From NCBI RefSeq assembly GCF_019320115.1, contig NC_089583.1, forward strand, positions 77,129,739 to 77,193,738: a stretch of DNA of 64,000 nt, in the 5' to 3' direction. Origin of the DNA: Miscanthus floridulus (taxonomy: Eukaryota > Streptophyta > Magnoliopsida > Poales > Poaceae). This document shows, one piece after another, positions 9,901 through 54,338 of this stretch (its first letter is position 1; every line of letters begins with the position of its first letter). Below the pieces are notes generated by a model, which worked only from the letters and a program-made list of their open reading frames with translations, had not been told where the DNA came from and searched no databases. The position numbers and the translations under genes were made by a program.

Positions 9901-9988
9901 GTGCCCGTGGACGAATAGGATTACGAAGAGGTCATTGTTGAGTATGAGGAGGAGATCCTCATGTAGGAGGGAGCCCCAGAGCGTTTGG
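6939..9988 (+). mobile_element. Solo LTR of a Tekay-like Gypsy family, left part
   Basis: The sequence begins TGTAACACCC, as does the chromovirus LTR at 9989. It is flanked on the left by GATAG (6934-6938), which recurs at 26868-26872 after the right part. No internal retroelement domains remain, so this is one LTR left by recombination. The second LTR insertion at 9989 splits it. It contains a GC-rich middle (about 7500-9300) and an acidic coding-like patch at about 9890-9984, in the same relative position as in the LTR of the nested element. Open frames such as 7581-8096 have no recognisable product. Confidence 0.75.
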
Positions 9989-12900
9989 TGTAACACCCTA
10001 GGTGTTTGGCTTCCACTAATTGCATTTCACTTCATAAACATATGCATCATCTATGTCATCATTGCCATTATTACTGAAACATGCATATGCAACATTTTCA
10101 ACTGTGTATGTTTCATGCTTGATTGTTGTGAATAGAATTGGTGTAATCTGTGAATGCAACATAAATTTCTCATACCTTGAAACATGGCAACATGGTAGAA
10201 ATATGACAAGTGTAGAATAACAACAAAGCTATGAAACATGTGCAACATTTCATTGCAACATATGAGTGAATTGTTTGTTTAGTTGCTTTATCACATGTGA
10301 TCATTAAAAGAGGTATAACAATTTTGTAAAGGTGGTTGATCATGGTCTAATACACCTTAACTACACTTAGAGTAATTGTTTGGACATTGTTCATGTAGGT
10401 CAAAATGACAGAATTGCCCTTGAATGGAGGTTTGACTTGAAATGAACCCTAGAGTGCCACTGTTTGACTATTTAAAAAGTGCAACTTAGATTCTATGCAT
10501 GTCTGAGCAAACTAAAGCAAAGTTGTAGTAAATTTTACAAGGAACAAAAGTTGTTTTATGACCAACTCATGAAAATGTGTGGAACATGCTCAAACATGGC
10601 CCACTAGTCAGAATGCCATGCTGATTTCACACTTAGAAAAATATTCTAAGTCATGGTACATTTCAATTGCATCAAGCCCACTTTGGTTTCATGTAACTTC
10701 GGATCCACGGCGTTTTAGGTGTTGGTCATTGAAAAGAATTTGTAGAGGGAAGGTAGGTCTACAACTTTGATGTTCAATTCCTCCACTAACTCGTCATGGA
10801 TTAGAAGCAGATCATCGTTGAATACTCGCTATCAGGCGTCGGCATTTGCACTGAATCGCATTTTTCAGAAAACGTTCAGTGAATGTTGTGGCCGACCGAT
10901 TCAGAAAACTAACGCTGCGTGGCGCCACCCATCGCCGCTCGCCTGAGCACATAGGCCATGCGCCGCGGATGCCCTGGCACGGCCAGCCGCGTCATGAAGC
11001 ACCCCAGCGCCTGCCCGACCGAGTCACCGTTCCATTTTCGCATTCTTTGCCTCCCACCACGTGCTGCAACAGAGCCGCAGCCGTCTGCCATTGCCAGCCG
11101 CACCTTCGCCTCCGCCGAGCTTCCACGCCGTTGCAAAAACACGTTGCTCCGTTCATCTAGAGCTTCGCCGTGATCCCCGTTACCATCTCCACCTCACCGC
11201 CGGGTCGATCGTGCCTCGATAAGGGCGTATTTGCCGTTTTCCCCCACCACAGCCATGGCGGGACCTCGCCGGAGTTGGCGCTCCACGCGGCCAGCTCTCC
11301 TCACGTCCTTGCCATCCCTCCTCCATCTCGCGCTAGGGTCTAGGCATGCGGCCGTAGCTCGTAGGGTCGCCCTACTAGGCTGCGACGCCGTATCGTTGTC
11401 GGAGCCGGCCGTGCCATGGCCGAGCGCCGCCATGGCCATCGCCACCCCCGCTAGCGGCGTCAGTAGCTGCAATAGAAGGTTTCCCTAGGTCCGCTCGGGT
11501 GAGGCGAACATGTTGGCACCGTTGCCGTCACCGGAGAAGCCACCGGCGACGACCTACGCCGCCGTCCGCTCCATTCCCCTGCCTGTCTCGCTGTCACGTG
11601 GGACCCGGCTGTCAGCCACCGAGGCTGAGGCAGGAGCCCAGCATGGGCCGCGCCGCGTCTTGGGCTGCGCCTGTGCGCTTCGTGGGCCGGCCCAACATCA
11701 GTGAAATGGTTTCCTTATTTGTTTTGTTTAACTATTTTTCACAGTTTGGTGTATAGATTCAAAAATATGTAACTCAAGTTTGGTAGATCCAAAGGATATG
11801 GTTACAATTTTGTTAAGTTCCTAGTCATGTCTAGTATTTAACAAAAATATTATATAAGCACATGTTTTATAAATTTTTGGTGAATTAAATAGGACTTTGA
11901 AATGTGTTTTTGGATACATGCAAACTTGTTTGAATTTTATCTTGAGTTTCTGTGGTCCAAAAATTATGAAATTTTGTGGGTAATCTGTTATTGCTTAGTA
12001 GAAGCTCTGGTTAAAATTTCAGAGCTAGTGCATGTGTAGTTTTTAAGTTATAGAATTTCCTTTTATTAATGGATGGATCTTGTGTGAATTTTCATAATTT
12101 TTCTATAGATCCAGTATAGGTAAAAATTGGTGAGTAAGGTTCTTATGCTGGAATGATGCTAGGAAAAATGTGAAATCTATTGCTTGACACTTTTCATTAG
12201 GGTTTCCTAATTATGCTCAAATTAGACATGTCATCTATTATTTTGGATACAGCAAGTTATGTTTGCCCAATGGCTTTGAAATTTTTATGGTAGTCTATGT
12301 GCAACATGAGATAGCTACTGTAAATTTTGTAGATTTTTATGAATAGTTTTACTATATATTGCTTAAATCACCTAATTAATTAAATAAATTGGAAAAGAAT
12401 ATTAAATAAATTATTTAGAAGTTGGCACTATACTTTCTGATGTTTCTTAGGTATGAAAAACAAGTTGGTAAACTTGGTTTGATCAAATTATGCTTTTGCA
12501 CAATCATTAAATAATTAAGTTAGTAACCCTGTCATTTCTGGACAGATTCTAAGTTTACGGGAATTCGATTTGGTTAACATAAGAATCATGCTTTGGTGTT
12601 TACAAATGTTTTGTAGAGAATTTCATAAGCTTTCCAGAATGTCCTCATGCAAGTCATTTGGAATTGTAGAACTTTAGTTGTGATTGAATTAAGGGACTAC
12701 TTGTATGCATATGAAACTTTAAATGTTAAATTATGTATACCTTTACTATTCTAAGCTGTGGTAATGTTCCTAGGTGTTAGGCCTTTAACTGAAGATGAGC
12801 ATCTTTATCTTAGGTTATGCAAGTTAGGTAAGTTGATCTTGTTCTTTAAGTTAAGTTAGATACATGCTTAAAGTGATTTGAATAGGGCTAGTCTTACTCG

Positions 12901-14664
12901 GTAAATGAGTGTCTAGTGATGTTTTCGATAAACGCTTACTGTGATTCATTCATCATGAGCATCATGTCATTCCTTATGCATCCATGGTATTTATCTTTTG
13001 CATCGGCATGCAATAGGTGTACCGGAAGGAGTGACCCTGCTGGAATTCGAGGAACTGAGTGAGCAGCAGCAGCCGACACCGGAGATTCAGGAGGAGTAGA
13101 CTTCAGGAGAAGTGCCAGACGAGGTCGCCGTTGAGTGCCTGGATCACCGTCCGTGCAACTTTGTGAAAGGCAAGCCCCAGAGCATATTAAGCCTCCTAAT
13201 TTCCGAAATGCAGTTATAGTATTATTATTACATATATTGTTGCATTAAGTTTAGGTGTTGGATGCAAACACTTGCTGCATTGGTTATCCGATCCTTGTCC
13301 AGATATTGTTACCCTGAATCCTATGTAGCTCAGGCTCGTGTAGTGCTTAGCCCTGCTTAAACACGATAGAAGTCAGGTGATTTCCTGTCACCTGCGAGAT
13401 ATAGGAAGATACATGTGGCACGGTTGGCTATATTTGCTATCGTGGAAAAGAACCAGTCTTAATTTGAAATGAAGACCGGACGGAGGCTTGCCAGTTTGCA
13501 GTGACTCCGTCTGCGTCGCTTAAGGACTGATTCTTGGAGCCTTTCCTGTTCATGTTGAACGCATGCCTCTCTCTTAGTTGGCTGGGTCTGGAGACCGACC
13601 GCGAAGCCGAGTAGCTCAACTCAGGCCGGGAGTCGATAAGTATAAAGTATGCCTCGGAAGGGAGCCATAGGCGTGAGTCCAAGGGCAGGTGATTTAAGAG
13701 TCCTGATCGTCCTAGCAGAAGGGTAATCCCTGAGAGCGCTGGCGCTGATCGAACCCACGAATTTGGTTCCTGAGTTGTACCAAAGGTAACCCACGGCTAC
13801 CCTTGCTAAGTATGCCAGGGTGAGAGTTAGGAATACCCCCTCAGCTGAGTTATAATTCGATTCGAGTCGCCGTCTCTCCCGGTTAGTGAGAACTTGATGG
13901 GCTTATCTCCAATGTAGATACACTTAATAACATAATGGTTCAGAAATGGATATGATGATGACAACCTTATTATACCTGCTATGGTTAATATTGTTTGCTC
14001 CTAATAAGTGAGTGCTCTAGTACAGGTGCTAATCTAGTGGACATGTAAATAATGATAAGCTTGATGCTAAGTTTAAATTGGTTACTATAATCATAAGCTC
14101 TTTTATGCAACTGTGTCAAGCTAGCCCACCTGAAAAGCCTTGCATGATCCTTGGTGTCTTTTATTTCGAGTTTTGATGGGTAAGTCTAGCTGAGTACCTT
14201 CTCGTACTCAGGGTTTATCTCCCACCTGTTGTAGATGACCAGTTCTACTTTGGTTGCTGCAAGTACTGCCTTCTCCTAGCTGGGGATGAAGACTAGACCG
14301 TTGGGCACGGTCTCTACTAGTTCTCGTACCTGATAATGCTTTTGTGGGACATGACTCAGACTTGGCAATGTAATTGAAAACTATGATGTTTGTACCAAAC
14401 TATGTTGCTTCCACACACTCGAACTTGGTTTGTAATATTCTATTTCAACTCTGATGGATGTAACCCGAATGCTAATTGTGAAATGTTGTAACGGATGATG
14501 TGTTGTGTTGAATCACTACGATCTTGGTTTGTATGTCGAGAGTTGGTTGAAATCCTTCGTGATTTCCGGACTACCGGGATTATGGGAGCTTAAGTATAGG
14601 AATTTGATCACTTCGGTGATTGTTTTTGTACTTACATTCTTATGATTTGGTCGGTTCTGTTACA
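9989..14664 (+). repeat. 5' LTR of Tekay-type element
   Basis: The LTR is 4676 bp, TGTAACACCC...TCTGTTACA. It has three parts: an AT-rich start, a GC-rich block (about 10880-11700), then AT-rich sequence and a patch with coding character at about 13015-13190 that also occurs in the 3' copy. The first bases contain an inverted repeat, AACACC-CTA-GGTGTT. Such a long LTR is exceptional. Confidence 0.92.
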
Positions 14665-14681
14665 GCTGGCATCAGAGCAAG
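14665..14681 (+). other. Primer-binding site, Tekay-type element
   Basis: Directly after the LTR end the sequence reads GCTGGCATCAGAGCAAG. The TGGCATCAGAGC core is the plant initiator-Met tRNA primer site with one substitution. Confidence 0.8.
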
Positions 14682-15421
14682 ATTTGACACTAAACACGTC
14701 ATTTGTGTATTTAAAACAAAAGTAATTGTGAAAATCCTAAATTAAATACTAAGTATTGCCAGTGGTCATATCCCTTATGCCCAAATAAGGACTCTTAGGT
14801 GGCTTATTAAAGTACTAACTTGGGGGTTCCTACTTGTTTTTGTTTCATCGTCCATACAGCGTGCTATTGTATGGATGCCATCCGCTTGGGTGGTAATGTA
14901 TGGATCAAAATACCTCTACGCTCTGGTAAGTGGGAGTTGTGAGAGCATGACCGTCCAACCGTCGGTCTAGGGGAGAGTAGTTGTGGTTGCTCGCATACTT
15001 ACATGTTCGATCATGTATCTATGAGAGTACTTAATTGTGGGTATCTTTGACGAGTAGCTGTGATACTAGAATGTATGCATCAGGGGATGTATGTATGAAA
15101 GTATTTAGTTTACTGCTTGTTTTCTATGCTTTTTGGGAAATTATTGGGCTGAAATGAATTTTTCTGCAGGTACACTAACAACGTATCGTTGTAGATCGAC
15201 TAGCTACCGTATATGAGAGAACGTATGTATGCCACCGTATATTTCGCTAGCCTTTAAATTTTTCTAGGTTCGTGAGGACGTATGGATCGTGCATGCATCA
15301 TGTTCAAGCATACATGGCATTTCTAGCATTATCCCCTCCCTTAAAAATTTGATTGTCCCGACTAATTAAATTTCGTATCCCTTAAATGATTCTCCCCTTA
15401 CGTTGCAACTTTTTGCTATAG
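14682..15421 (+). other. Untranslated leader of Tekay-type element
   Basis: I see no gene here. The leader ends in a pyrimidine-rich stretch and TATAG directly before the ATG at 15422. That looks like a splice acceptor placed one base before the start codon. A possible acceptor CTGCAG occurs near 15169. Confidence 0.5.
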
Positions 15422-16006
15422 ATGGCGCGCATGAAACTCACTGCTCGCAAGTCCGCTGGAGGCAGGGCACCTCATCACCGTTTAGCTCCTCGTGAGCCCC
15501 GTCCTGAGCCTACTGAGGCAGAAAGGCTGAGGACAGAGCTGGCCCGGGTGACCGCTGAGAGGAATGCGGCTCAGCACCGTTTGGAGCAGGTAACACAGGA
15601 AAGGGACCAAGAGACCCTTGAGGTTCAGAGGTTGACAGTTGCTCACTGCAACTGTGAACGCATGTTGATTCACATGATGAACCAATGGAATGAAGCCTGG
15701 CACGAAGAGAATGTGTTGAGAGCGCGATAGATGGAGCTAGAGCAGCAAGTGGCAGTTGCTGAAGAGTACAATGACCATCTCCATGAGGAGGTTCACCTGT
15801 TACACAATCAACTTCACCCTCTCCTGCCACCTGATGATGAGGATGAGATGGGTTCTGGTGTCATCATGGCTGAAGGTGATGATGACATGGAGGTCAATGG
15901 ACCTGAGGACGTTCCACCGGATGAGGAGGAAGATGAGGAGTTAGAGCCTGCTAGTGATGAAGATGGAGGAGAGATCTTCGACACTGACTCCGAGGATGAT
16001 GCGTAG
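15422..16006 (+). pseudogene. Extra ORF upstream of gag: histone H3 tail-like N terminus, coiled coil, acidic tail
   Basis: I do not recognise this as a named family. The first residues are MARMKLTARKSAGGRAP. Counted without the Met, they match the H3 tail at A1, R2, K4, T6, A7, R8, K9, S10, G12, G13, A15 and P16, and again at L20-A21. M3, L5, A11 and R14 differ, and nothing matches the K27 region. Residues about 35-130 are heptad-like and rich in Leu, Glu and Arg (LRTELARVTAERNAAQHRL), consistent with a coiled coil. The last 55 residues are strongly acidic, as in histone-binding proteins. One in-frame TAG at 15728-15730, probably from CAG, interrupts it; the frame then continues to TAG at 16004-16006. 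Full length would be about 194 residues. It lies between PBS and gag, in the gag frame but 415 bp upstream. Function is unknown; chromatin interaction is inference. Confidence 0.75.
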
Positions 16007-16420
16007 TTTAGCTTACTACTGAGCTAATGCGCTAGATCTAGTCTTTTGTTGATCCTCATGCATGAACGAGTAGCTTTGTAGCAAATTAATCATTGGGATA
16101 TAATATCGAACCCTATGTTACCCTTGATGTAAGTTGGAACCACTATGGCTTGGATGTAACCTATCGAACATATTATGCTCCACGTATGTGAGCTTTTGAT
16201 GAATTTCGCCTTTGCGGTCTATGGATCTCGTTGCTGGTTAAGTTCGTCGCATTTATATGTCAATTGATGCGCTTGATGAGTTGTGTGATTGTGATGAATG
16301 ATTGTGCCTCTATTGATTATTTAAATGCATTCTCTCCAATGGAATCAGTTTGGCATAATTATACAATTCATCTACAAAAGTTTCCACATCGTCAGTGCTC
16401 ATTGGCTATACCTTTTGCAG
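16007..16420 (+). other. Spacer between extra ORF and gag
   Basis: No coding signal is seen. The spacer ends in CTATACCTTTTGCAG immediately before the gag ATG at 16421. This has the form of a plant 3' splice site and suggests gag is made from a spliced RNA. Confidence 0.45.
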
Positions 16421-19400
16421 ATGGCTTATAACCTTCGTCGCGGTCGTAGCATGGGAGATGAGGAACAACCACCTCCTCCACCGCCCACACCAGCTGAGCT
16501 AATGCAGACAGTTGTGGAAAGTCAGAGCATGCTAGCTGAGGCTATGCGCCAGATGGCTAACCGTGAGGATTAGCATGTCCGCCAGGGACCCGAGCTGAAC
16601 TAGTACATCAGCTTTAACATGGACACAAAGCCTCCTATCTTTCATGAGGCAGAAGAACCCCTACAAGCGGATGAATGGTTGAGCACAATAGAGCAAAGGT
16701 TTGGATTGCTCCGTTTAACTGAAGGCATGAAGGCTTCGTATACAGGGCACTAGCTCCAAGGCCCTGCAGGCATCTAGTGGACCCATCACAGGACCACCTT
16801 CCCTGCTAATGTTGAGATTGTTTGGAACCAGTTCCAGGCAGCCTTCAGGGGACACTTTATCCCTCCTGGTCTCATGGCCATTAAGCATACTGAGTTTATG
16901 AAGCTCACCCAAGGCAACAAGAGTCTCAATGAGTACCTCCAGGTATTCAACAACCTGGCAAGGTATGCTCCTGAGTTCATCGATACTGACACCAAGAGAA
17001 TAGCTAGCTTCAAGAGGGGACTTTCCCCAAAACTGATGAAGTCAATGGGCAACTGCAAGTGTGTCACCTTCAATGAGTTTATCAGTAACACTCTGACTCA
17101 GGAGAACAATGACAAGATATATGCTGCTTCTAAGAACCATAAAAGGAACTTTGAGGCTGGTGCTTCCTAGTCCAAGGCTCCAATGGTATCTAAGGCCCCA
17201 TACCGTCCACCAAATGCTAATGTCCGATACCGCCCACCTTAGAAGAAGAACCAAGCTAAAACCGGTTTCCGCAAGGGGTATACAATTTCCTTGCCAAAGA
17301 ATACCTCTGGGCAGGGTAGCTCCAATGTTCCACCAGCAAACAGGCCATGCTGGAACTGTAACCAGCTTGGTCATTGGGCAAATAGATGTCCCCATCCTCC
17401 CAAGAATGCTCAAGGAAACATCCGTCAGGGGCGTGTTCACTATACTATAGTGGAGGAAATTCCTGCTGGTGAAGTGGTCACCGCTGGTAAGTTCCTTGTT
17501 AATGATCACCCTACAGTTGTGCTCTTTGATTCGGGTGCTTCGCACTCCTTTATGAGTTCTACTTTTGCATCTGAGCATAATATGAATGTGATTACAATTG
17601 TCAAGGGTGGTTATTGTATTAGTGCTGCTAGAAATAATATCCTGACTAACCAAGTCGTTAAAGATGTAAAGATTGAGATTGGGGATTGAGAGTTCTGTAT
17701 GGATCTTGTGGTTCTACCAGGGGTAGGAATTGATATAATCCTAGGAATGAAGTGGATGAGCGGGAATGGAGTGTTGATCGATATCTTAACCCGTGTGGTA
17801 ATGTTGAGGGATCCTGTGGATAAGAAGGGTTTTCTAGTGCAGTTACCTCGTGATATCTCTATCCACAATACCGCCAATGCTACCCTAGCCAAAGCCATTA
17901 AGGATCTATCGGTTGTCTGTGAGTTTCTAGATGTCTTTCCTGATGACTTGCCTGGATTACCTCCGGACCGTGATGTAGAATTCAAGATAGAACTCATTCT
18001 AGGTATGGCTCCTATTTCTCGAAGGCCTTATAGAATGCCACCCAATGAGTTGGCCGAGCTGAAGAGTCAGTTGAATGAGCTATTGAAGAAAGGGTTGATT
18101 CGGCCTAGTTCTTCTCCTTGGGGTTGTCCGGCTATATTTGTGAAGAAGAAGGACGAGTCTCTACGCATGTGCGTGGATTATCGCCCCCTAAACGCTGTTA
18201 CTATCAAGAACAAATACCCTCTTTCTCGCATCGATATTCTGTTTGATTAGCTCCCCAAGGCTAAGGTATTCTCCAAGATCGATTTGAGGTCTGGCTACCA
18301 TTAGATCAAAATTCGTCCTGAAGATATACCTAAGACAACTTTTTCTACTCGTTATGGCTTGTTCGAATACCTCGTCATGTCATTTGGGTTGACAAATGCT
18401 CTGACACACTATATGTACCTGATGAATTCTGTATTCATGCCAGAATTGGACAAATTTGTTGTCGTGTTCATTGATGATATCCTGGTATATTCTCAGAATG
18501 AAGAAGAGCATGCTGGACATCTGAGAATTGTTTTAACTCGGTTACGTGACAACTAGCTTTATGCTAAGTTCAGCAAGTGCGAGTTCTGGTTGAACAAGAT
18601 TCCTTTTCTAGGTCATGTATTATCTGGTGATGGAATTTCGGTTGACCCTACTAAGGTGCAAGAAGTCCTTGAGTGGAAGGCACCTACTACGGTCACAGAA
18701 GTCCGAAGTTTCCTAGGATTGGCTAGCTATTATCGTCGCTTTATCTTGGATTTCTCAAAGATTGCCAAGCCCATGACTCGACTACTGCAAAAGGATGAGA
18801 AGTTTGTGTGGACTCCGAAGTGTGAAGAGGCTTTCCACACTTTGCGGACTTTACTAACCTCTGCTCCTGTATTGGCACAACCTGACATCGAGAAGCCTTT
18901 TGATGTCTACTGTGACGCATGTGGCACCAGTTTGGGGTGTGTTCTTATGCAGGAGGGCCGAGTAATTGCTTATGCTTTGTGCCAGCTCTGAAAGCATGAA
19001 GTCAACTATCCTACCCATGACTTAGAGCTAGCCGCAGTTGTTCATGCCCTGAAGATTTGGAGACATTACTTGCTGGGTAATGTGTGCAACATCTATACTG
19101 ACCATAAAAGCCTCAAGTACATCTTTACTCAACCCGAGTTGAACATGCATCAACAACGATGGTTAGAATTAATCAAAGATTACAGCCTTCAAGTGCACTA
19201 CCATCCTGGTAAGGCAAATGTGGTTGCTGATGCCTTAAGCAGAAAGGCCCATTGCAATTCCTTAGTTAGTGAAGACTTTCATCTGGCACACCTCCTTCAT
19301 CCTGTAGTACTCCACAATATCACTGTGGATTGCTCTCTTAGAAGTCGAATTATTGAACTCCAGAAGACGGATGTGGGTGTATTTCACATCAAGCGGAAGA

Positions 19401-20788
19401 TGAAAGAGAAAGAGACCAAGCACTTTAGGGTCGATGACAAGGGAATTCTCTGGTTTAATGATAGGCTTGTGGTACCCAAAGATAAAGAACTTAGAAATCA
19501 AATTATGGATGAAGCCCATTCTTCAAAATTGTCCATCCATCCTGGTAGCAGTAAAATGTATCAAGATCTCAAGCTGTATTATTGGTGGACCAAGATGAAG
19601 AAAGAAATCGCAGCTTACGTGGCAAGGTGTGATAACTGTTGTAGAGTCAAGGCTATTCACATAAGGCCCGGACTATTGCAGCCACTCTCTATTCCTGGCT
19701 AGAAGTGGGAAGAAATTAGCATGTATTTTATTGTTGGACTACCCCCTACCAAAAAGGGTTGTGATTCCATCTGGGTTATCGTAGATCGTCTAACTAAATC
19801 TGCTCACTTTATTTCGGTCAAGTCTACCTATCATCCTCACAATTATGCTAAGATTTATTTTCAACAAGTGGTACGTCTCCATGGTGTACCCAAATCCATT
19901 ATTTCTGATAGAGGACCTCAGTTCACGGCTCGCTTTTGGGAGTGCTTACATCAGAATCTTAGCACTCATCTAATCCGCAGTTCTGCCTATCATCCGCAAA
20001 CATCAGGACAGACTGAGCGTGTTAATCAGATTCTTGAAGACATGCTTAGAGCTTGTCTTATCTCTTGCAAAGGCTCTTGGGAAGACTGGTTACCTCTCGC
20101 TGAATTCTCTTATAACAACAGTTATCAAGAAAGTATCAAAATGGCTCCTTTTGAAGCTCTTTATGGCCGCAAGTGTAGAACTCCTTTGAACTGGGTGGAA
20201 CCCAGAGAAAGAAGATTCTATGGTATTGATTTTGTAAAAGAAGCCGAAGAGCAAGTCCGAACTATACAGAAGAATATGGCCACCACATAGGCTAGATAAA
20301 AGAGCTATGCTGACAAGAGAAGAAAACCTATTGAGTTTGAAGTAGGTGATCATGTTTATTTGAAGGTATCCCCTATGAAAGGAGTCAAGCATTTTGGAAT
20401 TAAAAGGAAGCTTGAGCCTCGATATGTTGGACCCTACCGCATTATCGAGAAAAGTGGAAGAGTAGCATATAAGCTCGATCTACCACGTGAGATGGGAGCT
20501 ATATTCCCGGTATTCCATGTGTCCCAGCTGAAGAAGTGTCTTCGTATTTCCGAGGAAAGAATAGCAACAAGGAAAGTCAACTTGAAATCTGATCTTTCTT
20601 ATGAGGAAAAGCCCGTACAAGTCCTGGATACTCAAGAAAGAGTGGCTCGTACACGAGTAGTTAAGTTATACAAGGTAGTTTGGAGTAATCATAGTGAACG
20701 GGATGCAACCTGGGAGCGGAAAGATTATTTAAAGGAAAATCATCCAACTTTCTATACTAAATGGTACGCTTTCCAAATCTCAGGATGA
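16421..20788 (+). pseudogene. Tekay-type gag-pol polyprotein with chromodomain, broken by in-frame stops
   Basis: The single frame runs from ATG 16421 to TGA 20786-20788. Gag comes first (retrotransposon gag region about 16620-17160, then a zinc knuckle C-X2-C-X4-H-X4-C at about 17348-17390). The protease DSGAS motif starts at 17528. Reverse transcriptase spans about 18000-18560 with the FIDD catalytic box at 18467-18478. RNase H follows (about 18890-19230), then the integrase zinc region (about 19510-19650) and integrase core (IVDRLTKSAHF, ISDRGPQF, TERVNQILED; about 19775-20045). A chromodomain lies at about 20610-20760. Fourteen stops interrupt it: eleven TAG, one TAA and two TGA. Each is one C-to-T or G-to-A change from Gln, Arg or Trp. 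There is no frameshift. The copy cannot make a full polyprotein unless stops are suppressed. Confidence 0.92.
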
Positions 20789-20798
20789 GATTTTTCTA

Positions 20799-20810
20799 AG
20801 GGGGGAGGGC
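20799..20810 (+). other. Polypurine tract, Tekay-type element
   Basis: AAGGGGGGAGGG lies immediately before the 3' LTR, the expected plus-strand primer tract of an LTR element. Confidence 0.85.
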
Positions 20811-23800
20811 TATAACACCCTAGGTGTTTGGCTTCCACTAATTGCATTTCACTTCATAAACATATGCATCATCTATGTCATCATTGCCATTGTTACTGAA
20901 ACATGCATATGCAACATTTTCAACTGTGTATGTTTCATGCTTGATTGTTGTGAATAGAATTGGTGTAATCTGTGAATGCAACATAAATTTCTCATACCTT
21001 GAAACATGGCAACATGGTAGAAATATGACAAGTGTAGAATAACAACAAAGCTATGAAACATGTGCAACATTTCATTGCAACATATGAGTGAATTATTTGT
21101 TTAGTTGCTTTATCACATGTGATCATTAAAAGAGGTATAACAATTTTGTAAAGGTGGTTGATCATGGTCTAATACACCTTAACTACACTTAGAGTAATTG
21201 TTTGGACATTGTTCATGTAGGTCAAAATGACAAAATTGCCCTTGAATGGAGGTTTGACTTGAAATGAACCCTAGAGTGCCACTGTTTGACTATTTAAAAA
21301 GTGCAACTTAGAGTCTATGCATGTCTGAGCAACCTAAAGCAAAGTTGTAGTAAATTTTACAAGGAACAAAAGTTGTTTTATGACCAACTCATGAAAATGT
21401 GTGGAACATGCTCAAACATGGCCCACTAGTCAGAATGCCATGCTGATTTCACACTTAGAAAAATAGTCTAAGTCATGGTACATTTCAGTTGCATCGAGCC
21501 CACTTTGGTTTCATGTAACTTCGGATCCACGGTGTTTTAGGTGTTGGTCATTGAAAAGAATTTGTAGAGGGAAGGTAGGTCTACAACTTTGATGTTCAAT
21601 TCCTCCACTAACTCGTCATGGATTAGAAGCAGATCATCGTTTAATACTCGCTGTCAGGCGTCGGCATTTGCACTGAATCGCGTTTTTCAGAAAACGTTCA
21701 GTGAACGTTGTGGCCGACCGATTCAGAAAACTGACGCCGTGTGGCACCACCCATCGCCGCTTGCCTGAGCACGCAGGCCACGCGCTGCGGACGCCCTGGC
21801 ATGGCCAGCCACGTCATGAAGCACCCCAGCGCCTGCCCGACCGAGTCGCCGTTCCATTTTCGCATTCTTCGCCTCCCACCACGCGCTGCAACAGAGCCGC
21901 AGCCGTCCGCCATTGCTAGCCGCACCTTTGCCTCCACCGAGCTTCCACACCATTGCAAAAACGTGTTGCTCCATTCATCTAGAGCTTCGTCGTGATCCCC
22001 GTTACCATCTCCACCTCACCGCCGGGTCGATCGTGCCTCGGTAAGGGCGTATTCGCCGTTTTCCCCCACCGCAGCCATGGCGGGACCTCGCCGGAGTTGG
22101 TGCTCCACGCGGCCAGCTCTCCTCGTGTCCTTGCCATCCCTCCTCCATCTTGCGCTAGGGTCTAGGCATGCGGCCATAGCTCGTAGGGTCGCCCTACTGG
22201 GCTGCGACGCCGTATCGTCGTCGGAGCCAGCCGTGCCATGGCTGAGCGCCGCCGTGGCCATCGCCACCCCTGCTAGCAGCGTCAGTAGCTGTAATAGAAG
22301 GTTTCCCTAGGTCTGCTCGGGTGAGGCGAACATGTTGGCGCTGTTGCCATCACCGGAGAAGCCACCGGCGACGACCTACGCCACCGTCCGCTCCATTCCC
22401 CTGCCTGTCTCGCTGTCACGCGGGACCCGACTGTCAGCCGCCGAGGCTGAGGCGGGAGCCCAGCGTGGGCCGCGCCGCGTCTTGGGCCGCGCCTGTGTGC
22501 TTTGCGGGCCGCCGTTTCCTCGGGCCGGCCCAACATCAGTGAAATGGTTTCCTTATTTGTTTTGTTTAACTATTTTTCACAGTTTGGTGTATAGATTCAA
22601 AAATATGTAACTCAAGTTTGGTAGATCCAAAGGATATGGTTACAATTTTGTTAAGTTCCTAGTCATGTCTAGTATTTAACAAAAATATTATATAAGCACA
22701 TGTTTTATAAATTTTTGGTGAATTAAATAGGACTTTGAAATGTGTTTTTGGATACATGCAAACTTGTTTGAATTTTATCTTGAGTTTCTGTGGTCCAAAA
22801 ATTATGAAATTTTGTGGGTAATCTGTTATTGCTTAGTAGAAGCTCTGGTTAAAATTTCAGAGCTAGTGCATGTGTAGTTTTTAAGTTATAGAATTTCCTT
22901 TTATTAATGGATGGATCTTGTGTGAATTTTCATAATTTTTCTATAGATCCAGTATAGGTAAAAATTGGTGAGTAAGGTTCTTATGCTGGAATGATGCTAG
23001 GAAAAATGTGAAATCTGTTGCTTGACACTTTTCATTAGGGTTTCCTAATTATGCTCAAATTAGACATGTCATCTATTATTTTGGATACAGCAAGTTATGT
23101 TTGCCCAATGGCTTTGAAATTTTTATGGTAGTCTATGTGCAATATGAGATAGCTACTGTAAATTTTGTAGATTTTTATGAATAGTTTTACTATATATTGC
23201 TTAAATCACCTAATTAATTAAATAAATTGGAAAAGAATATTAAATAAATTATTTAGAAGTTGGCACTATACTTTCTGATGTTTCTTAGGTATGAAAAACA
23301 AGTTGGTAAACTTGGTTTGATCAAATTATGCTTTTGCACAATCATTAAATAATTAAGTTAGTAACCCTGTCATTTCTGGACAGATTCTAAGCTTACGGGA
23401 ATTCGATTTGGTTAACATAAGAATCATGCTTTGGTGTTTACAAATGTTTTGTAGAGAATTTCATAAGCTTTCCAGAATGTCCTCATGCAAGTCATTTGGA
23501 ATTGTAGAACTTTAGTTGTGATTGAATTAAGGGACTACTTGTATGCATATGAAACTTTAAATGTTAAATTATGTATACCTTTACTATTCTAAGCTGTGGT
23601 AATGTTCCTAGGTGTTAGGCCTTTAACTGAAGATGAGCATCTTTATCTTAGGTTATGCAAGTTAGGTAAGTTGATCTTGTTCTTTAAGTTAAGTTAGATA
23701 CATGCTTAAAGTGATTTGAATAGGGCTAGTCTTACTCGGTAAACGAGTGTCCAGTGATGTTTTCGGTAAACGCTTACTGTGATTCATTCATCATGAGCAT

Positions 23801-25502
23801 CATGTCATTCCTTATGCATCCATGGTATTTATCTTTTGCATCGGCATGCAATAGGTGTACCGGAAGGAGTGACCCTGCTGGAATTCGAGGAACTGAGCGA
23901 GCAGCAGCAGCCGACACCGGAGATTCAGGAGGAGCAGACTTCAGGAGAAGTGCCAGACAAGGTCGCCGTTGAGTGCCCAGATCACCGTCCGTGCAACTTT
24001 GTGAAAGGCAAGCCCCGGAGCATATTAAGCCTCCTAATTTCTGAAATGCAGTTACAGTATTATTATTACATATATTGTTGCATTAAGTTTAGGTGTTGGA
24101 TGCAAACACTTGCTGCATTGGTTATTCAATCCTTGTCCAGATATTGTTACCTTGAATCCTATGTAGCTCAGGCTCATGTAGTGCTTAGCCCTGCTTAAAC
24201 ACGATAGAAGTTAGGTGATTTCCTGTCACCTGCGAGATATAGGAAGATACATGTGGCACGGTTGGCTATATTTGCTATCGTGGAAAAGAACCAGTCTTAA
24301 TTTGAAATGAAGACCGGATGGAGGCTTGCCGGTTTGTAGTGACTCCGTCTACGTCGCTTAAGGACTGGTTCTTAGAGCCTTTCCTGTTCATGTTGAACGC
24401 ATGCCTCTCTCTTAGCTGGCCAGGTCTGGAGACCGACCGTGAAGCCGAGTAGCTCAACTCAGGCCGGGAGTCGATAAGTATAAAGTACGCCTCGGAAGGG
24501 AGCCGTAGGCATGAGTCCAAGGGCAGGTGATTTAAAAATCCTGATCGTCCTAGCAGAAGGGTAATCCCTGAGAGCGCTGGCGCTGATCAAACCCATGAAT
24601 TTGGTTCCTAAGTTGTACCAAAGGTAACCCACAGCTACCCTTGCTAAGTATGCCAGGGTGAGAGTTAGGAATACCCCCTCAGCTGAGTTGTAATTCGATT
24701 CGAGTCGCCGTCTCTCCCGGTTAGTGAGAACTTGACGGGCTTATCTTCAATGTAGATACACTTAATAACATAATGGTTCGGAAATGGATATGATGATGAC
24801 AATCTTATTATACCTGCTATGGTTAATATTGTTTGCTCCTAATAAGTGAGTGCTCTAGTACAGGTGCTAATCTAGTGGACAGGTAAATAATGATAAGCTT
24901 GATGCTAAGTTTAAATTGGTTACTATAATCATAAGCTCTTTTATGCAACTGTGTCAAGCTAGCCCACCTAAAAAGCCTTGCATGATCCTTGGTGTCTTTT
25001 ATTTCTAGTTTTGACGGGTAAGTCTAGCTGAGTACCTTCTCGTACTCAGAGTTTATCTCCCACCTGTTGCAGATGACCAGTTCTACTTTGGTTGCTGCAA
25101 GTACTGCCTTCTCCTAGCTAGGGATGAAGACTAGACAGTTGGGCACGGTCTCTACTAGTTCTCGTACCTGATAATGCTTTTGTGGGACATGACTTAGACT
25201 TGGCAATGTAATTGAAAACTATGATGTTTGTACCAAACTATGTTGCTTCCGCACACTCAAACTTGGTTTGTAATATTCTATTTCAACTTTGATGGATGTA
25301 ACCCGAATGCTAATTGTGAAATGTTGTAATGGATGATGTGTTGTGTTGAATCACTACGATCTTGGTTTGTATGTCGAGAGTTGGTTGAAATCCTTCGTGA
25401 TTTCCGGACTACCGGGATTATGGGAGCTTAAGTACAGGAATTTGATCACTTCGGTGATTGTTTTTGTACTTACGTTCTTATGATTTGGTCGGTTCTGTTA
25501 CA
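20811..25502 (+). repeat. 3' LTR of Tekay-type element
   Basis: The LTR is 4692 bp and matches 9989-14664 over its full length. The first two bases are TA instead of TG, one substitution at the terminus. Differences concentrate in the GC-rich block (about 21700-22540), where many are C/T or G/A, and a short insertion is present near 22510. The coding-like patch at about 23856-24030 is open here but has a TAG in the 5' copy. Confidence 0.92.
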
Positions 25503-25507
25503 TTTGG

Positions 25508-29337: not shown

Positions 29338-31149
29338 TGAAAGCTCTAGTTTGGTTTTGGTGAATTGATGAAACCCTAAGTGCTAACCTAGTTTATCAAA
29401 GTGATTATGATATAGGTAGCACTACTCCAAGTGATTAAGCAAATAAAGATCAGGACATGATGATGGTGATGCTATGGTGATGATCACATGCTTGGACTTG
29501 AAAAGGAGAAAGAAAAACAAAAAGCTCAAGACAAAGGTGAAATTGATAGGAGCTTTTTGGTTTAGTGATCAAGACACTTAGAGAGTGTGATCACATTTAG
29601 GATCGATAGCCATAATATTAAGAGGGGTGAAACTCATATCAACATGCAGTTATCAAAGTGCCACTAGATGCTCTAACTCATTACTTATGCATTTAGGATC
29701 TAGTGGAAAGCTAACACCCTTGAAAATGTTTGTAAAAATATGCTAACACACATGCACAAGGTAATACACTTGGTGGTTAGCACATTTGAGCAAGGGTGTA
29801 GAAGTTGGTGAAATGAAGGAGGTGATAGTCACTAAGAAATAGTGACTGAACGTTGGTCCTGCATCTGGTCAGTGGTGCGCAGTGAAGGATGCCCTCGATC
29901 TCTTGACCAGATGCAGGTGACTGGACGTAGGCTAAACACTGTTTAGTGTCCGGTCATGCTGATGTGGCATCGCATAGAGGAAATAGTGAGTGATCGGACA
30001 TTGGGCGAGTTTGGTCGATGGTGACCGAACGCGTCCGGTCACAACTTAAATGTACTGATGACTGTTGAGATTGGGCGATTAGCGTTTGAAGCAGGGGACA
30101 CATGGCGTGTATCACGAGACCGAATGCTAGGGTCCTATGTCCGGTTGATCTGACCTATGTGTCCGGTCGCCTTGATTTTCAGTGGATTGAGGAGCCAACG
30201 GCTCTATTTCGTGGGGGCTTCTATTTAAGCACCATGGCCAGCTCAAGCTCACTCGCTTGGCCATTTGCATTAACATAGCAACCTTGTGAGCTTAGCCAAA
30301 GCCCTCCCACTCATCTCCATCATTGATTCATCATCTTTGTGAGATTGGGAGAGAATCCAAGTATATTGCTTGAGTGATTGCATCTAGAGGCACTTGGTAT
30401 TCGTGTTTTGCTATAGGATTCACTTGTTGCTCTTGGTGGTTGCCACCACCTAGATGGCTTGGTGCGGTGGAGGAGGATTGGCACAAGTTGGTGATTGTTC
30501 GTGGCCATCTCCGGTGATTATGAGGAGACTTGTACCTTCCCTGACAAAGCGCCGAAAGGTAACCCTAGTGGATTACTCGTGTCATTGAGTTACCTCACTT
30601 GTGGGTAGGTTATTGCGGTGTCCAATTATATGGACGAGGTTTGTGCAACACCTCTTAGCCACTGAACCACCAAATGTTAGTCGACACAACGGGGACATAG
30701 CGTGTTGGCAAGCACGTGAACCTCGGGAGAAAATTAGTTGTCTCTTGCCCTTTGGTATTCTCCCAGTGATTGATTTAGTATTCATCTTGTGATTAGTTCA
30801 CTCCTCTACACCGCGGTATAATCACCCTGCTCACTCATTTATATTCTTGCAAACTAGTTGTAGCATGCTCTTTAGTGTAATTAGAATTGAGAGCTTGCTT
30901 TGTAGTTTGAGTTCATCTAGTGGAGCTCTTTAGTGTAGCAAGTGTGAGAGCTCTTAGTGAGTAGTGACTTAGCAAATTGTGTGTCTAGTGATCATAGTAA
31001 CTAGAATTATTGGATAGGTGGCTTGCAACCCTTGTAGAGCTAGAGCAAGTTTGCATTTAGCTATTTGTTATACTAATAAAATTATTCTAGTTGATTTATA
31101 GATTTTTAAATAGGCTATTCACCCCCTCTAGCCATATTACGACCTTTCA
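29338..31149 (+). repeat. 3' LTR of Sirevirus-like element
   Basis: The LTR is 1812 bp, begins TGAAAGCTCTAG and ends ACCTTTCA. It aligns along its length with 1664-3571 but lacks some of the palindrome units. TAGTT follows immediately, matching GAGTT on the other side at four of five positions. Confidence 0.9.
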
Positions 31150-40445: not shown

Positions 40446-40920
40446 TGTCAGGTGATCTCTACTGGCTAATTGGGCCCTTGAATCCGCGCCCTGATCTAGG
40501 GCGTCCAACCGTTCCATGGTTGGTGGGCCCTCGTCGGACAGCGCCATAAAAAGGAAGGTGGGGGCCGAGGCACAAGGCACGAAGTTCACCTGAGCCGCCA
40601 GACGCCCCACCTACATCCCCGAAACCCTAAACCGATTTAAGTCAGGGGGCGTTGCCAGTGACGGAAAGCACTGCCACCTGCCAACGCCACCACTGCACTG
40701 TCGCCCTTCATCGCAGCGCCTCCACCGAATCTTCACCAAGCACCGCGATGGCTGGCCCGTCTTTCTCAAAGGCGGCCGATGATTTGCACCTCCTCTACCC
40801 TCTCTCTCACACACTCTATCTGTTAATCCCATACTGGTAGATGTACTAGGACTCGCTGTTTATTCCAAATGCAAGTACATATGCTAGATCTATGTCTAGT
40901 GATCTTGCTTAAGTCTATCA
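40446..40920 (+). repeat. 5' LTR of Copia-A
   Basis: The LTR is 475 bp, begins TGTCAGGTGATCTC and ends AAGTCTATCA. CCATAAAAAGG at about 40544 is a TATA-like promoter element. AAACCCTAAACCG near 40622 is a telo-box-like motif. Confidence 0.9.
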
Positions 40921-46699: not shown

Positions 46700-47207
46700 T
46701 ATTAGGTGATCTCCACCAATTGGCCCGGCCCTTGAATTCGTGCCCTCGTCGGGGGCGCCCAACCGTTGCATGGTTGGTGGGCCCCCGTCGCACAGCGCCA
46801 TAAAAAGAGAGGTGGAGACCGGAGCACAAGACACGAAGTTCACCTGAGCCGTCAGACGCCCCACCTACATCCCCGAAACCCTAAACCGATCTAAGTGGGG
46901 GGAGCGTTGCCAGCGACGGAAAACACCGTCACCGGCCAACGCCGCCACTGCACTGCCGCTCTTCATCGCAGCGCCTCCACTGAGTCTTCATCAAGCACCG
47001 TGATGGCCAGCCCGTATTCCTCGAAGGTAGCCGATGATTTGCACCTTTTGTACCCTCTCTCTCACTCTATCTGTTAATCCCATACTAGTAGATGTATTAG
47101 GACTCGCTGTTTATCCCATACTAGTAGATGTATTAGGACTCGCTGTTTATCTCAAATATAAGTATACATGCTAAATCTATGCCCAATGATCGTGCTTAAG
47201 TCTATCA
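46700..47207 (+). repeat. 3' LTR of Copia-A
   Basis: The LTR is 508 bp, begins TATTAGGTGATCTC (TG mutated to TA) and ends AAGTCTATCA. It is longer than the 5' LTR because a unit of about 35 bp (CCATACTAGTAGATGTATTAGG...) is duplicated in tandem at about 47083-47154. A weak purine tract AAGGTGGAAAA precedes it. Confidence 0.9.
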
Positions 47208-51982: not shown

Positions 51983-54338
51983 ATGGCTTTGAAGGCGAGC
52001 TCCGGCGACAACCGGACCAGGAGCACGGTGTTCCTATGCATAGTGATTGGCATGTGCTGCTTCTTCTACATCCTCGGAGCGTGGCAGAAGAGCGGGTTCG
52101 GCAAGGGGGACAGCATCGCGCTGGAGGTCACGAAGCGCACCGACTGCACCGTCTTGCCCAACCTTAGCTTCGACACCCACCATTCTAAAGCTATTGGCAG
52201 CAGCTCTAGCGATCTTGTCTCGCCAGCGAAGAAGTTCAAGCCTTGCGCTGATCACTACACGGATTACACCCCCTGCCAAGATCAGAACAGGGCGATGAAG
52301 TTCCCTAGGGAGAACATGAATTACAGAGAGCGGCACTGCCCGGCGCAGAAGGAGAAGCTGCACTGTCTGATCCCACCCCCAAAAGGTTACGTGGCTCCGT
52401 TCCCGTGGCCCAAGAGTCGGGACTATGTCCCGTTTGCAAATTGCCCGTATAAGAGTTTGACGGTCGAGAAAGCCATCCAGAACTGGGTTCAGTATGAGGG
52501 TAATGTGTTCAGATTCCCTGGTGGAGGGACACAATTCCCGCAAGGAGCCGATAAGTATATTGATCAGCTTGCATCAGTCATTCAGATCGCCAATGGAACT
52601 GTCAGGACTGCACTTGACACTGGTTGCGGGGTAAGAGGAAATGCCAAACTGCATATTGCGTGTTGCTAATTCGAGCCAGGTTACAAAGTCTGGTTCATGT
52701 CTTAACACACCATAACTATTTCAGGTGGCTAGCTGGGGAGCTTATTTGCTGAAGAGGAATGTCTTGGCCATGTCGTTTGCGCCAAGAGATTCGCACGAGG
52801 CACAAGTGCAGTTTGCTCTGGAGAGAGGTGTCCCAGCTGTTATTGGTGTCCTTGGTACAATAAAACTTCCTTATCCATCGAGGGCCTTTGACATGGCCCA
52901 TTGTTCCAGGTGCTTGATTCCATGGGGAGCCAATGGTGAGCTTAATCATGCGTCCTCTTATATTCTGCATCAAAGCAAAAAAATTCAGGGATTGTAACTA
53001 TCATTGATACTTAGAACATTCATTTATATTTGATGCAAGTCATTTTACAACCCGAAATTGTTTTCGCATTTTCACAGATGGAATGTACATGATGGAAGTT
53101 GATAGGGTTCTAAGGCCTGGTGGCTACTGGGTGCTGTCTGGCCCTCCAATTAATTGGAAGGTGAACTACAAGGGTTGGCAACGCACAAAGAAGGATCTTG
53201 AGGCAGAGCAGAACAGGATAGAGGAAATTGCTGACCTTCTATGTTGGGAAAAAATCTCAGAGAAGGGTGAGATGGCAATATGGAGGAAAAGGGTGAATAC
53301 TGAGTCTTGCCCTTCTAGGCAAGAAGAATCAACTGTGCATATGTGTGAATCAACAAACCCAGATGATGTCTGGTATGCTGTTCATGTAATCTTGTTAATA
53401 AGATCAGTCATTTGAACAGAGTACTTTGGTTTGTATGGTTCTTTTCTGTTCCAAATTCTTACAAACTACTGCTACTTCATCAGGTACAAGAAGATGAAGG
53501 CCTGTGTGACACCCCTTCCAGATGTAAAAGATGAAAGCGAAGTAGCTGGAGGAGCAATCAAACCCTTCCCGGCCAGGCTCAATGCAGTTCCTCCAAGAAT
53601 TGCTAATGGTTTGATCCCAGGGGTTTCGTCTCAGGCATTTCAGAAAGACAATAAAATGTGGACGAAGCATGTCAAGGCTTAACAAGTATCTGCTTACTGG
53701 TAGATACAGGAATATTATGGACATGAATGCAGGATTCGGGGGATTCGCTGCTGCAATAGAGTCCCCAAAATCTTGGGTGATGAATGTTGTGCCGACCATC
53801 GCAAAGATGCCTACCCTGGGGGCTGTGTATGAGCGAGGATTGATTGGCATATATCATGACTGGTTTGACATTTTACACTTGAATTGTGTGCTCACAAAAG
53901 TAGTGTGCTAGTGATCATGAACTTACATTTTGACACTACCCTATTGCAGGTGTGAGGCTTTCTCTACTTATCCAAGGACATATGATCTTATCCATGCTAG
54001 CGGTCTTTTCACCTTGTATAAAAACAAGTAAGCTACTCTTGTCTTCTGTAGTTAATTCATAACTTGCATTGCCTGTGCTGATCTATTTTATATATGAAAC
54101 TACCAACAGGTGCAGCATGGAAGACATTCTCCTGGAGATGGACCGCATCTTGAGGCCTGAAGGTGCCGTCATAATACGGGACGATGTTGACGTCCTAACC
54201 AAGGTGAACAGCCTCGCTCTGGGTATGAGGTGGAACACGAAGATGGTTGATCACGAGGATGGCCCCCTCGTGCGCGAGAAGATCTTATATGCCGTGAAGC
54301 AGTACTGGGTTGGTGGGAATCAGACGGCTGTAGCTTGA
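51983..54338 (+). pseudogene. PMT-family S-adenosylmethionine-dependent methyltransferase gene, frame disrupted
   Basis: This is a plant PMT protein (DUF248 family; QUA2/TSD2 relatives), Golgi type II membrane proteins thought to methylate cell-wall polysaccharide such as homogalacturonan. Exons: 51983-52630, 52725-52935, 53078-53372, 53484-53862, 53950-54027, 54110-54338, all with GT...AG introns. Residues 15-33 are the membrane anchor ([19 protein letters not shown]). The SAM-binding motif LDTGCG ends exon 1 and continues VASWGAYLL in exon 2. [35 protein letters not shown] and [16 protein letters not shown] follow. In exon 4 at about 53680, GTCAAGGCT runs into TAA. Homologues have four more residues between KA and NKYLL, so about 11 nt seem deleted. 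With those 11 nt the coding total of 1840 nt becomes divisible by three. Otherwise the gene is intact, so the lesion is recent, allelic or a sequence error. Confidence 0.88.

Follow-up and report, generated by a model that had tools for sequence, protein, structure and literature searches.

An additional open reading frame, ORF0, is known upstream of gag-pol in grass Ty3/gypsy elements (PMC3485330), and a conserved 5' extra ORF is likewise described in sunflower Tekay elements (PMC11728184). The grass Tekay (Del) elements with ORF0, namely Retrosat2, RIRE3, RIRE8, ZMsat2 and Sorsat2, carry the same extra sense ORF upstream of gag-pol as the element studied here, and the LTRs of Retrosat2, RIRE3 and RIRE8 are about 3 kb or more, long as in our element (PMC3485330, PMC11728184). 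For the extra ORFs of maize and sorghum, a weak fold match to a double-stranded-RNA-binding-motif protein is reported (PMC11728184). The word 'histone' occurs in neither of the main texts on grass ORF0 (PMC3485330) and on the Tekay extra ORF (PMC11728184), and it is likewise absent from the accessible part of a review of additional ORFs (PMC7264820), while a host-factor review, as far as its available text goes, ties histone H3 to chromodomains and not to extra ORFs (PMC12786077). A preliminary description of the present DNA had compared the start of its ORF0 with the tail of histone H3 and knew of no earlier account. None is found in our literature searches on H3-like retrotransposon ORFs and extra ORFs, whose coverage leaves most subscription journals outside.

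The window, by which we mean the whole 64-kb stretch analysed (on contig C4 of a 2.68-Gb genome), contains a Ty3/gypsy LTR retrotransposon at 9989-25502 (+) that carries ORF0 between its 5' LTR and gag. LTRs, 5-bp target duplication, primer-binding site and polypurine tract are all present in this element. The 5' LTR (9989..14664, +), whose ends TGTAACACCC...TGTTACA are read directly, and the 3' LTR (20811..25502, +) are recovered by blastn of the window against itself; each is about 4.7 kb long, and the pair is 97.0% identical (9991-14664 versus 20813-25502). The target-site duplication TTTGG, also read directly, stands at 9984-9988 and 25503-25507. The primer-binding-site-like TGGCATCAGAGC (14667..14678, +) resembles the usual plant initiator-tRNA motif, and the polypurine tract AAGGGGGGAGGG lies at 20798-20809 (+). 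Downstream of ORF0, the gag region (16421..17689, +) has a broken frame with its ATG at 16421 and a stop after 49 codons, and a CCHC knuckle and the start of an aspartic protease are found at 17291-17689 (+; PF00098, 1.2e-6, and PF08284, 1.2e-15). By Pfam, the pol remains (17699..20788, +) include the protease end, the RNase H end, the integrase zinc-binding and core domains, and an SH3-like plus chromodomain-like C-terminus, of which the integrase core rve and Chromo (PF00385, E 0.0014) fall under the Pfam cut-offs. Within the parts scanned, protease, RNase H end and integrase follow each other in Ty3/gypsy order; Tekay/Del is a provisional label, taken from the preliminary description. In layout the element is Retrosat2-like, but we do not class it as Retrosat2, because its LTR ends, TGTAACACCC / TGTTACA, differ from those given for RIRE8/Retrosat2 in the available source text, TGTCACACCC / GGGCGTGACA.

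In the remainder of the window, repeat blocks at 1696-2753 and 29371-30331 flank the ORF0 element (95%, 88% and 82% identical), and the ORF0 element seems to be nested inside another LTR element; the ORFs at 3632 and 26803 are presumably copia-like, judged by their look. Two further repeat blocks, at 40473-40817 and 46727-47072 (85-88% identical), are probably the LTRs of another element, and the ORF at 51983-52669 is reminiscent of a plant PMT-type methyltransferase.

ORF0 is a sense frame between the leader and gag (15422..16006, +). Its H3-like tail comprises Met and residues 1-21 as numbered in H3 (15422..15487, +) and is delimited by sequence comparison, PDB search and comparison of copies. 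The likeness to the H3 tail claimed in the preliminary description is confirmed, with 15/22 identities over the first 22 residues (Met counted), and it stops at L20-A21, close to residue 21 where that description had put its end. The window copy itself is decayed: codon 103 (15728-15730) is an in-frame TAG, and residue 3 is M, not T; across 60 aligned copies including this one, residue 3 is T in 51 and M in 9. When the first 30 residues are searched by phmmer against the PDB (177,635 distinct sequences), H3 is matched with a best E of 2.9e-4, and the best 60 of 129 matches are histone H3 entries, one of them labelled Cse4. The colinear resemblance to the histone tail exceeds chance, which is ruled out as its source by these matches together with the genome-wide pattern count given below (2106 versus a control of 0). 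That ORF0 is a misread histone gene is also ruled out, since the globular histone fold PF00125 has no match in the ORF0 pieces of the window or of the types B, C and D described below.

A protein search finds 179 relatives of ORF0, of which the 120 listed, together with 11 from a search with the tail region, make up the 131 sequences used. The tail-region search gives at least 40 matches, which are ORF0 relatives, and no H3 is among the matches listed; a third protein search adds nothing new to the relatives, and none are found in viral_contigs and genome_contigs. When at least 9/27 H3 identities at the expected place are taken to define an H3-like N-terminus, 45 of the 131 relatives have one, with 11-18 identities in 22 residues, among them P0018 (overall identity 70%), P0091 and P0127, which are diverged and come from other sources. 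The remaining 86 fall below this threshold; among the matches listed, such sequences begin further in, like short metagenome ORFs.

The H3-like tail is conserved in multiple copies of the genome. A protein search of the genome yields 7468 candidates, the best 150 of which were scored, so the ORF is not confined to the window copy. From these 150, 60 copies were drawn by rank with long open frames preferred, a sample biased to similarity and intactness. In it K4, T6, K9, G13, P16 and A21 are retained in all 60, and A1 in 55, R2 in 52, T3 in 51, A7 in 58, R8 in 56, S10 in 59, G12 in 55, A15 in 49 and L20 in 59, with L or R in place of Q5 and mostly A in place of T11. A diverged relative, itself carrying C2 and H8, was the query for a second set of 30 copies; here K4, K9, S10, P16, L20 and A21 are present in 30/30, T3 in 23, R8 in 22 and R2 in only 14, the other 16 having C or H at this residue. 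The fairest sample is a third set, picked by the DNA downstream of ORF0 (best 40 of 2076 scored), with the tail stretch taken from the first 20 of 39 other places. The start is kept in 19 of these 20 places, and the one exception, L124, has unrelated DNA at the tail position; together with the genome-wide relatives, this rules out a one-copy oddity. Among the 19, A1, K4, T6, A7, K9, G13, P16, L20 and A21 are invariant, R8, S10 and G12 are present in 18, R2, T3 and A15 in 17, and T11 in 4, while the K14 of H3 is R in 19/19 and K18 is H. Changes of the C-to-T type account for many of the losses in the tail, turning R into C or H, T into M and A into V; methylated insertions in decay should show this pattern.

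The preliminary description had proposed a check for purifying selection on the tail, and signs of selection on its likeness to H3 are seen in the window family, within the limits of the sampling. By uncorrected pairwise counting, pN/pS is 0.41 in the tail, 0.72 in the linker, 0.23 in the coil, 0.39 in the acidic end and 0.30 overall. The choice of the 60 copies by ORF0 similarity and long frames lowers nonsynonymous counts. For a correction by mutational spectrum, a neutral substitution table was built from the flanking noncoding DNA of the same copies. With it, nonsynonymous differences at the 15 H3-identical tail positions occur at 0.51 of the neutral expectation, and the nonsynonymous/synonymous ratio there is 0.34 in this sample biased to intact copies; at the six other tail positions the two values are 1.01 and 0.55. 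The table is imperfect, as synonymous differences exceed it at the H3-identical positions (1.51), at the other tail positions (1.84) and over ORF0 (1.36). Elsewhere in ORF0 the corrected ratio is 0.34 in the coil, 0.65 in the linker and 0.53 in the acidic end.

Behind the tail, codons 32-134 (15515..15823, +) encode a predicted coiled-coil helix, and the following stretch (15824..16003, +) an acidic C-terminal tail that is predicted to be disordered. Both parts had been anticipated in the preliminary description and are supported by the relative P0002, modelled by AlphaFold2 on 58 sequences. In this model residues 32-134 form a single helix, with ten-residue pLDDT means of 93-99 over residues 31-130, and the H3-like tail and the acidic end are modelled as disordered on this one 103-residue helix. 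Among 5000 shuffles, 0 or 2 reach the heptad contrast of P0002, according to which residue set is used, and D/E occupy 29/60 residues of its acidic tail. The heptads point to a dimerising helix, so the H3-like tail would be displayed in at least two copies if the helix dimerises.

The N-terminal 30 residues of P0002 have a net charge of +7, which would also suit a simpler reading, that the tail persists solely as a basic stretch for nuclear import or RNA binding, its likeness to H3 being an exon leftover with no H3 reader or writer involved. In the same direction, 5' extra ORFs of other Tekay elements are predicted to be nuclear in the accessible part of one report (PMC11728184). Nevertheless, the uncharged residues T6, A7, G13, P16, L20 and A21 are retained in 19/19 flank-chosen copies, while R replaces K14 and H replaces K18; charge alone is thus insufficient to account for the tail, and we regard this reading as rather unlikely.

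Beyond what the preliminary description had noticed, the tail is also present in other ORF0 types, where it is closer to H3. Both strands of the genome were searched with a pattern made up of CAG, ATG and the codons encoding A R T K x T A R K S, which gives 1079 forward and 1027 reverse matches, 2106 altogether, against 0 and 0 for the control; the 2106 may include host H3 genes, as those on C1 and C2 fit the pattern. Searches for H3 tails in such genomes will thus collect transposon copies by hundreds or more. Among the first 100 matches (all on C1), the free codon 5 is CAG (Q, as in H3) in 74, CGC or CTC, the codons of the window family, in 21, TAG in 4 and CTG in 1. Three types, each represented by one copy picked with CAG at codon 5, are B (L118), C (L119) and D (L120). 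All three begin MARTKQTARKSTGGRAP, closer to H3 than the window family. After it comes a short variable stretch with L20 A21, then FGMPTLLWRVL..., and a middle domain of about 130 residues absent from the window family (L118:109-900, L119:107-901, L120:105-566). In B and C a coil-like stretch and an acidic end follow, then gag (PF03732, E 5.1e-9 in the piece of B and 1.5e-17 in that of C), while the frame of L120 ends after 154 residues. The middle domain has no convincing match in Pfam, NCBIfam or PDB, the NCBIfam scan having been made without D and its profile. It may be a double-stranded-RNA-binding domain, as inspection by eye and the weak fold match in PMC11728184 suggest, but profiles from Pfam, NCBIfam and PDB give this idea no support. 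In 20 further C1 stretches, all chosen with CAG at codon 5, the middle domain follows in 20/20; in these T11 is kept in 19, G12 and A15 in 18, and G13, R14, P16, L20 and A21 in 20. Since the CAG-type stretches carry the middle domain, its absence from the window family probably reflects a loss, which would make that family a shortened relative. R replaces the K14 of H3 in these 20/20 stretches as in the 19/19 flank-chosen copies of the window family, and the sharing of R14 across the sampled types suggests one origin for all of them.

The tail is common to types that have otherwise diverged. Between B and C, A1-P16 are identical in 16/16 amino acids, with nonsynonymous differences at 0 of 34.2 sites and synonymous ones at 7.0 of 13.8, while the middle domain has 54% amino acid identity (dN 0.43) and the rest 27% (dN 0.86). 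Ten of the 16 residues were preset, 1-4 and 6-10 by the pattern and 5 by the choice of CAG; at the free residues 11-16 the identity is 6/6 with two silent differences, for which the chance is 0.025 at the identity of the middle domain and 4e-4 at that of the rest. The synonymous differences at preset residues show that the B and C tails are old, not recent copies of each other. These figures bear on the reading that the tail is decaying baggage, a functionless fragment hitch-hiking with the element and intact since the copies are young. The 97.0% identity of the window-copy LTRs and the changes at R2, T3 and R8 in many window-family copies would fit it; yet the tail is identical between types with 27-54% body identity and 7 of 13.8 synonymous sites changed (with ten residues preset), and H3-identical positions lie under the neutral rate in the window family. 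We give this reading very little credence.

As to its source, the tail resembles an exon taken from an intron-bearing H3 gene, and an acceptor-like site immediately precedes its ATG, both points going beyond the preliminary description. The intron-bearing host H3 loci are probably of H3.3 type, to judge from their intron. In 6/8 loci of this kind GT directly follows K23, so that coding exon 1 has 24 codons; the divergent H3-like loci L110 and L111 have AT in its place. The likeness in ORF0 ends at A21, two residues short of the end of exon 1 (K23), in agreement with the host exon boundary. CAG directly precedes the ATG in two of six host genes (C1 and C2), as in ORF0, and is absent from the other four. 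At the DNA level, likeness to host H3 is strong for B, weak to modest for the window family and D, and none for C with respect to the H3.3-type genes. Type B has 56/66 bases identical to the host gene on C8 and 14/18 same-residue codons in common with it, where ORF0 codon use would predict 6.6 (P 8e-5, in one of 33 comparisons), although this best codon match has no CAG at its ATG; with the C1 and C2 genes B shares 11/18 (P 0.016), and with five intronless H3 genes 6-8/18. Type D has 10-11 codons in common with the C8, C1 and C2 genes (P 0.016-0.055), the 11/18 being with C1 and C2 (P 0.016). Type C shows a slight excess with three intronless genes (8/18, P 0.017-0.023). In four window-family copies, 9-11 codons are the same as in the C8 gene (P 0.0066-0.13) and 4-8 the same as in intronless genes (P 0.0022-0.24); the excess being equally large with the latter, these codons do not single out a donor class. 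Overall, the comparisons suggest that an exon of an intron-bearing H3 gene was captured and is best preserved in B. Under convergence, a basic Ala/Gly/Thr-rich start would have evolved toward H3 without any capture, and type C, having no codon excess with the H3.3-type genes (7/18 with C8, expected 6.7, and 5/18 with C1 and C2), is in line with this. It would, however, have to account for 22 residues colinear with H3 from the Met onwards, for a likeness that ends near the exon boundary of intron-bearing H3 genes, for an acceptor at the ATG as in two host H3 genes, and for the base identity of type B to one host gene, so that we judge it highly improbable.

Signals resembling splice sites are kept around ORF0. 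The leader has a splice-donor-like GTAAGT (14926..14931, +) in 58/60 copies, which puts it at the 92nd percentile of flank hexamers (hexamer mean in flanks 0.71). The splice-acceptor-like ACTTTTTGCTATAG (15408..15421, +) stands directly before the ORF0 ATG, and a second acceptor-like site, ACCTTTTGCAG (16410..16420, +), directly before the gag ATG; the AG before the ATG is kept in 59/60 and 56/60 copies respectively, versus a mean retention of 0.885 for AG or GT pairs in the flanks. This arrangement suggests alternative messages for ORF0 and Gag, which putative splicing would produce. A pyrimidine-rich CAG lies immediately upstream of the gag ATG, as it does at ORF0. Another GTAAGT lies at 16129 between ORF0 and gag, and the exact ten-base word around it is found in 46/60 copies. 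An upstream start reading MILPL... was considered for ORF0 and rejected: the 12 codons upstream of the ORF0 ATG do not share its frame in 6/60 copies (L021, L033, L034, L041, L059 and L068), the upstream ATG is gone in L032, and a stop stands directly before the ORF0 ATG in 11/60. Because of these frameshifts, the lost ATG and the stops, we read the 12 codons as acceptor and not as coding.

With moderate confidence we interpret the start of ORF0 as a captured H3 exon that was retained as a histone mimic borne by a coiled coil, with an H3-tail enzyme or reader as its candidate partner. The first coding exon of an intron-bearing H3.3-type host gene, with Met and residues 1-23, would have been taken up by a Ty3/gypsy ancestor, perhaps together with its splice acceptor. 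It would then have formed the N-terminal part of ORF0, whose coding sequence lies upstream of gag and which is presumably translated from the ATG directly after the acceptor-like site. Removal of Met is usual for Met-Ala starts; in ORF0 it would leave a free A-R-T-K...A-R-K-S end, as in H3, carried by an oligomeric coiled coil whose C-terminal tail is acidic. Selection would then have held A1 R2 T3 K4, T6 A7 R8 K9 S10, G12 G13, P16 and L20 A21, while K14 would have been replaced by R in the types sampled, a change that would block acetylation there. The retained residues are those contacted by K4 and K9 enzymes and readers, which makes a decoy or docking role the most economical. ORF0 would most likely engage host H3-tail enzymes or readers in the nucleus, the first candidates being the machinery for H3K9 methylation and proteins that read the free end of H3, and the element may benefit either because such partners are titrated away from its chromatin or because its complexes are docked on chromatin. 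H3K9-based silencing is a main plant defence against such elements, and if the interpretation is true, a histone tail kept by a retrotransposon would be a direct weapon or docking piece in the conflict over this silencing. It also offers a function for ORF0, whose role the cited texts leave open, as well as a candidate partner for the type II chromodomain.

More tentatively, and with copy counts and selection measures of the H3 tail coming from one genome only, we put forward that a whole radiation of plant LTR retrotransposons may carry a captured and selected H3 tail as a histone mimic, made from a spliced message, with a free ARTK end on a multicopy coil, and intercepting the H3K9 silencing machinery or the readers by which unmethylated K4 and methylated K9 are coupled to small-RNA silencing, or else partnering the element's own type II chromodomain. 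Taken alone, the idea that the tail serves as partner of the element's own type II integrase chromodomain or of targeting readers, for docking at integration and not as a decoy, seems to us decidedly unlikely. The chromodomain-like integrase C-terminus of the window element (PF00385, under cut-off) speaks for it, and so does the description of partners or mechanism of type II chromodomains as not identified in the accessible parts of two texts (PMC6317226, PMC12786077); against it, sunflower Tekay groups without the 5' extra ORF still have type II chromodomains, according to the available portion of PMC11728184.

The captured-exon mimic has likenesses among known systems. Animal viruses and host regulators are known to mimic histones, and the viral mimics, such as the tail of influenza NS1 and others, bear H3-like motifs of a few residues on proteins of genomic parasites; ORF0, in comparison, has 15-20 of 22 residues, beginning at the initiator Met as in H3 itself. 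VANC, an anti-silencing accessory protein of plant transposons that acts on DNA methylation, is similar to ORF0 in being an accessory element protein thought to counter host silencing, and we know of no H3 likeness in it. The nearest precedent found is H3L, an H3 transduplication in a hAT DNA transposon of the fungus Pyrenophora tritici-repentis, by which H3-derived coding sequence is present in many copies (PMC3538342, as far as its available text goes). According to the same portion of that text, H3L is a full H3-like gene, found by its globular domain, whereas in the elements studied here the tail only is carried, on a coiled coil and by LTR retrotransposons.
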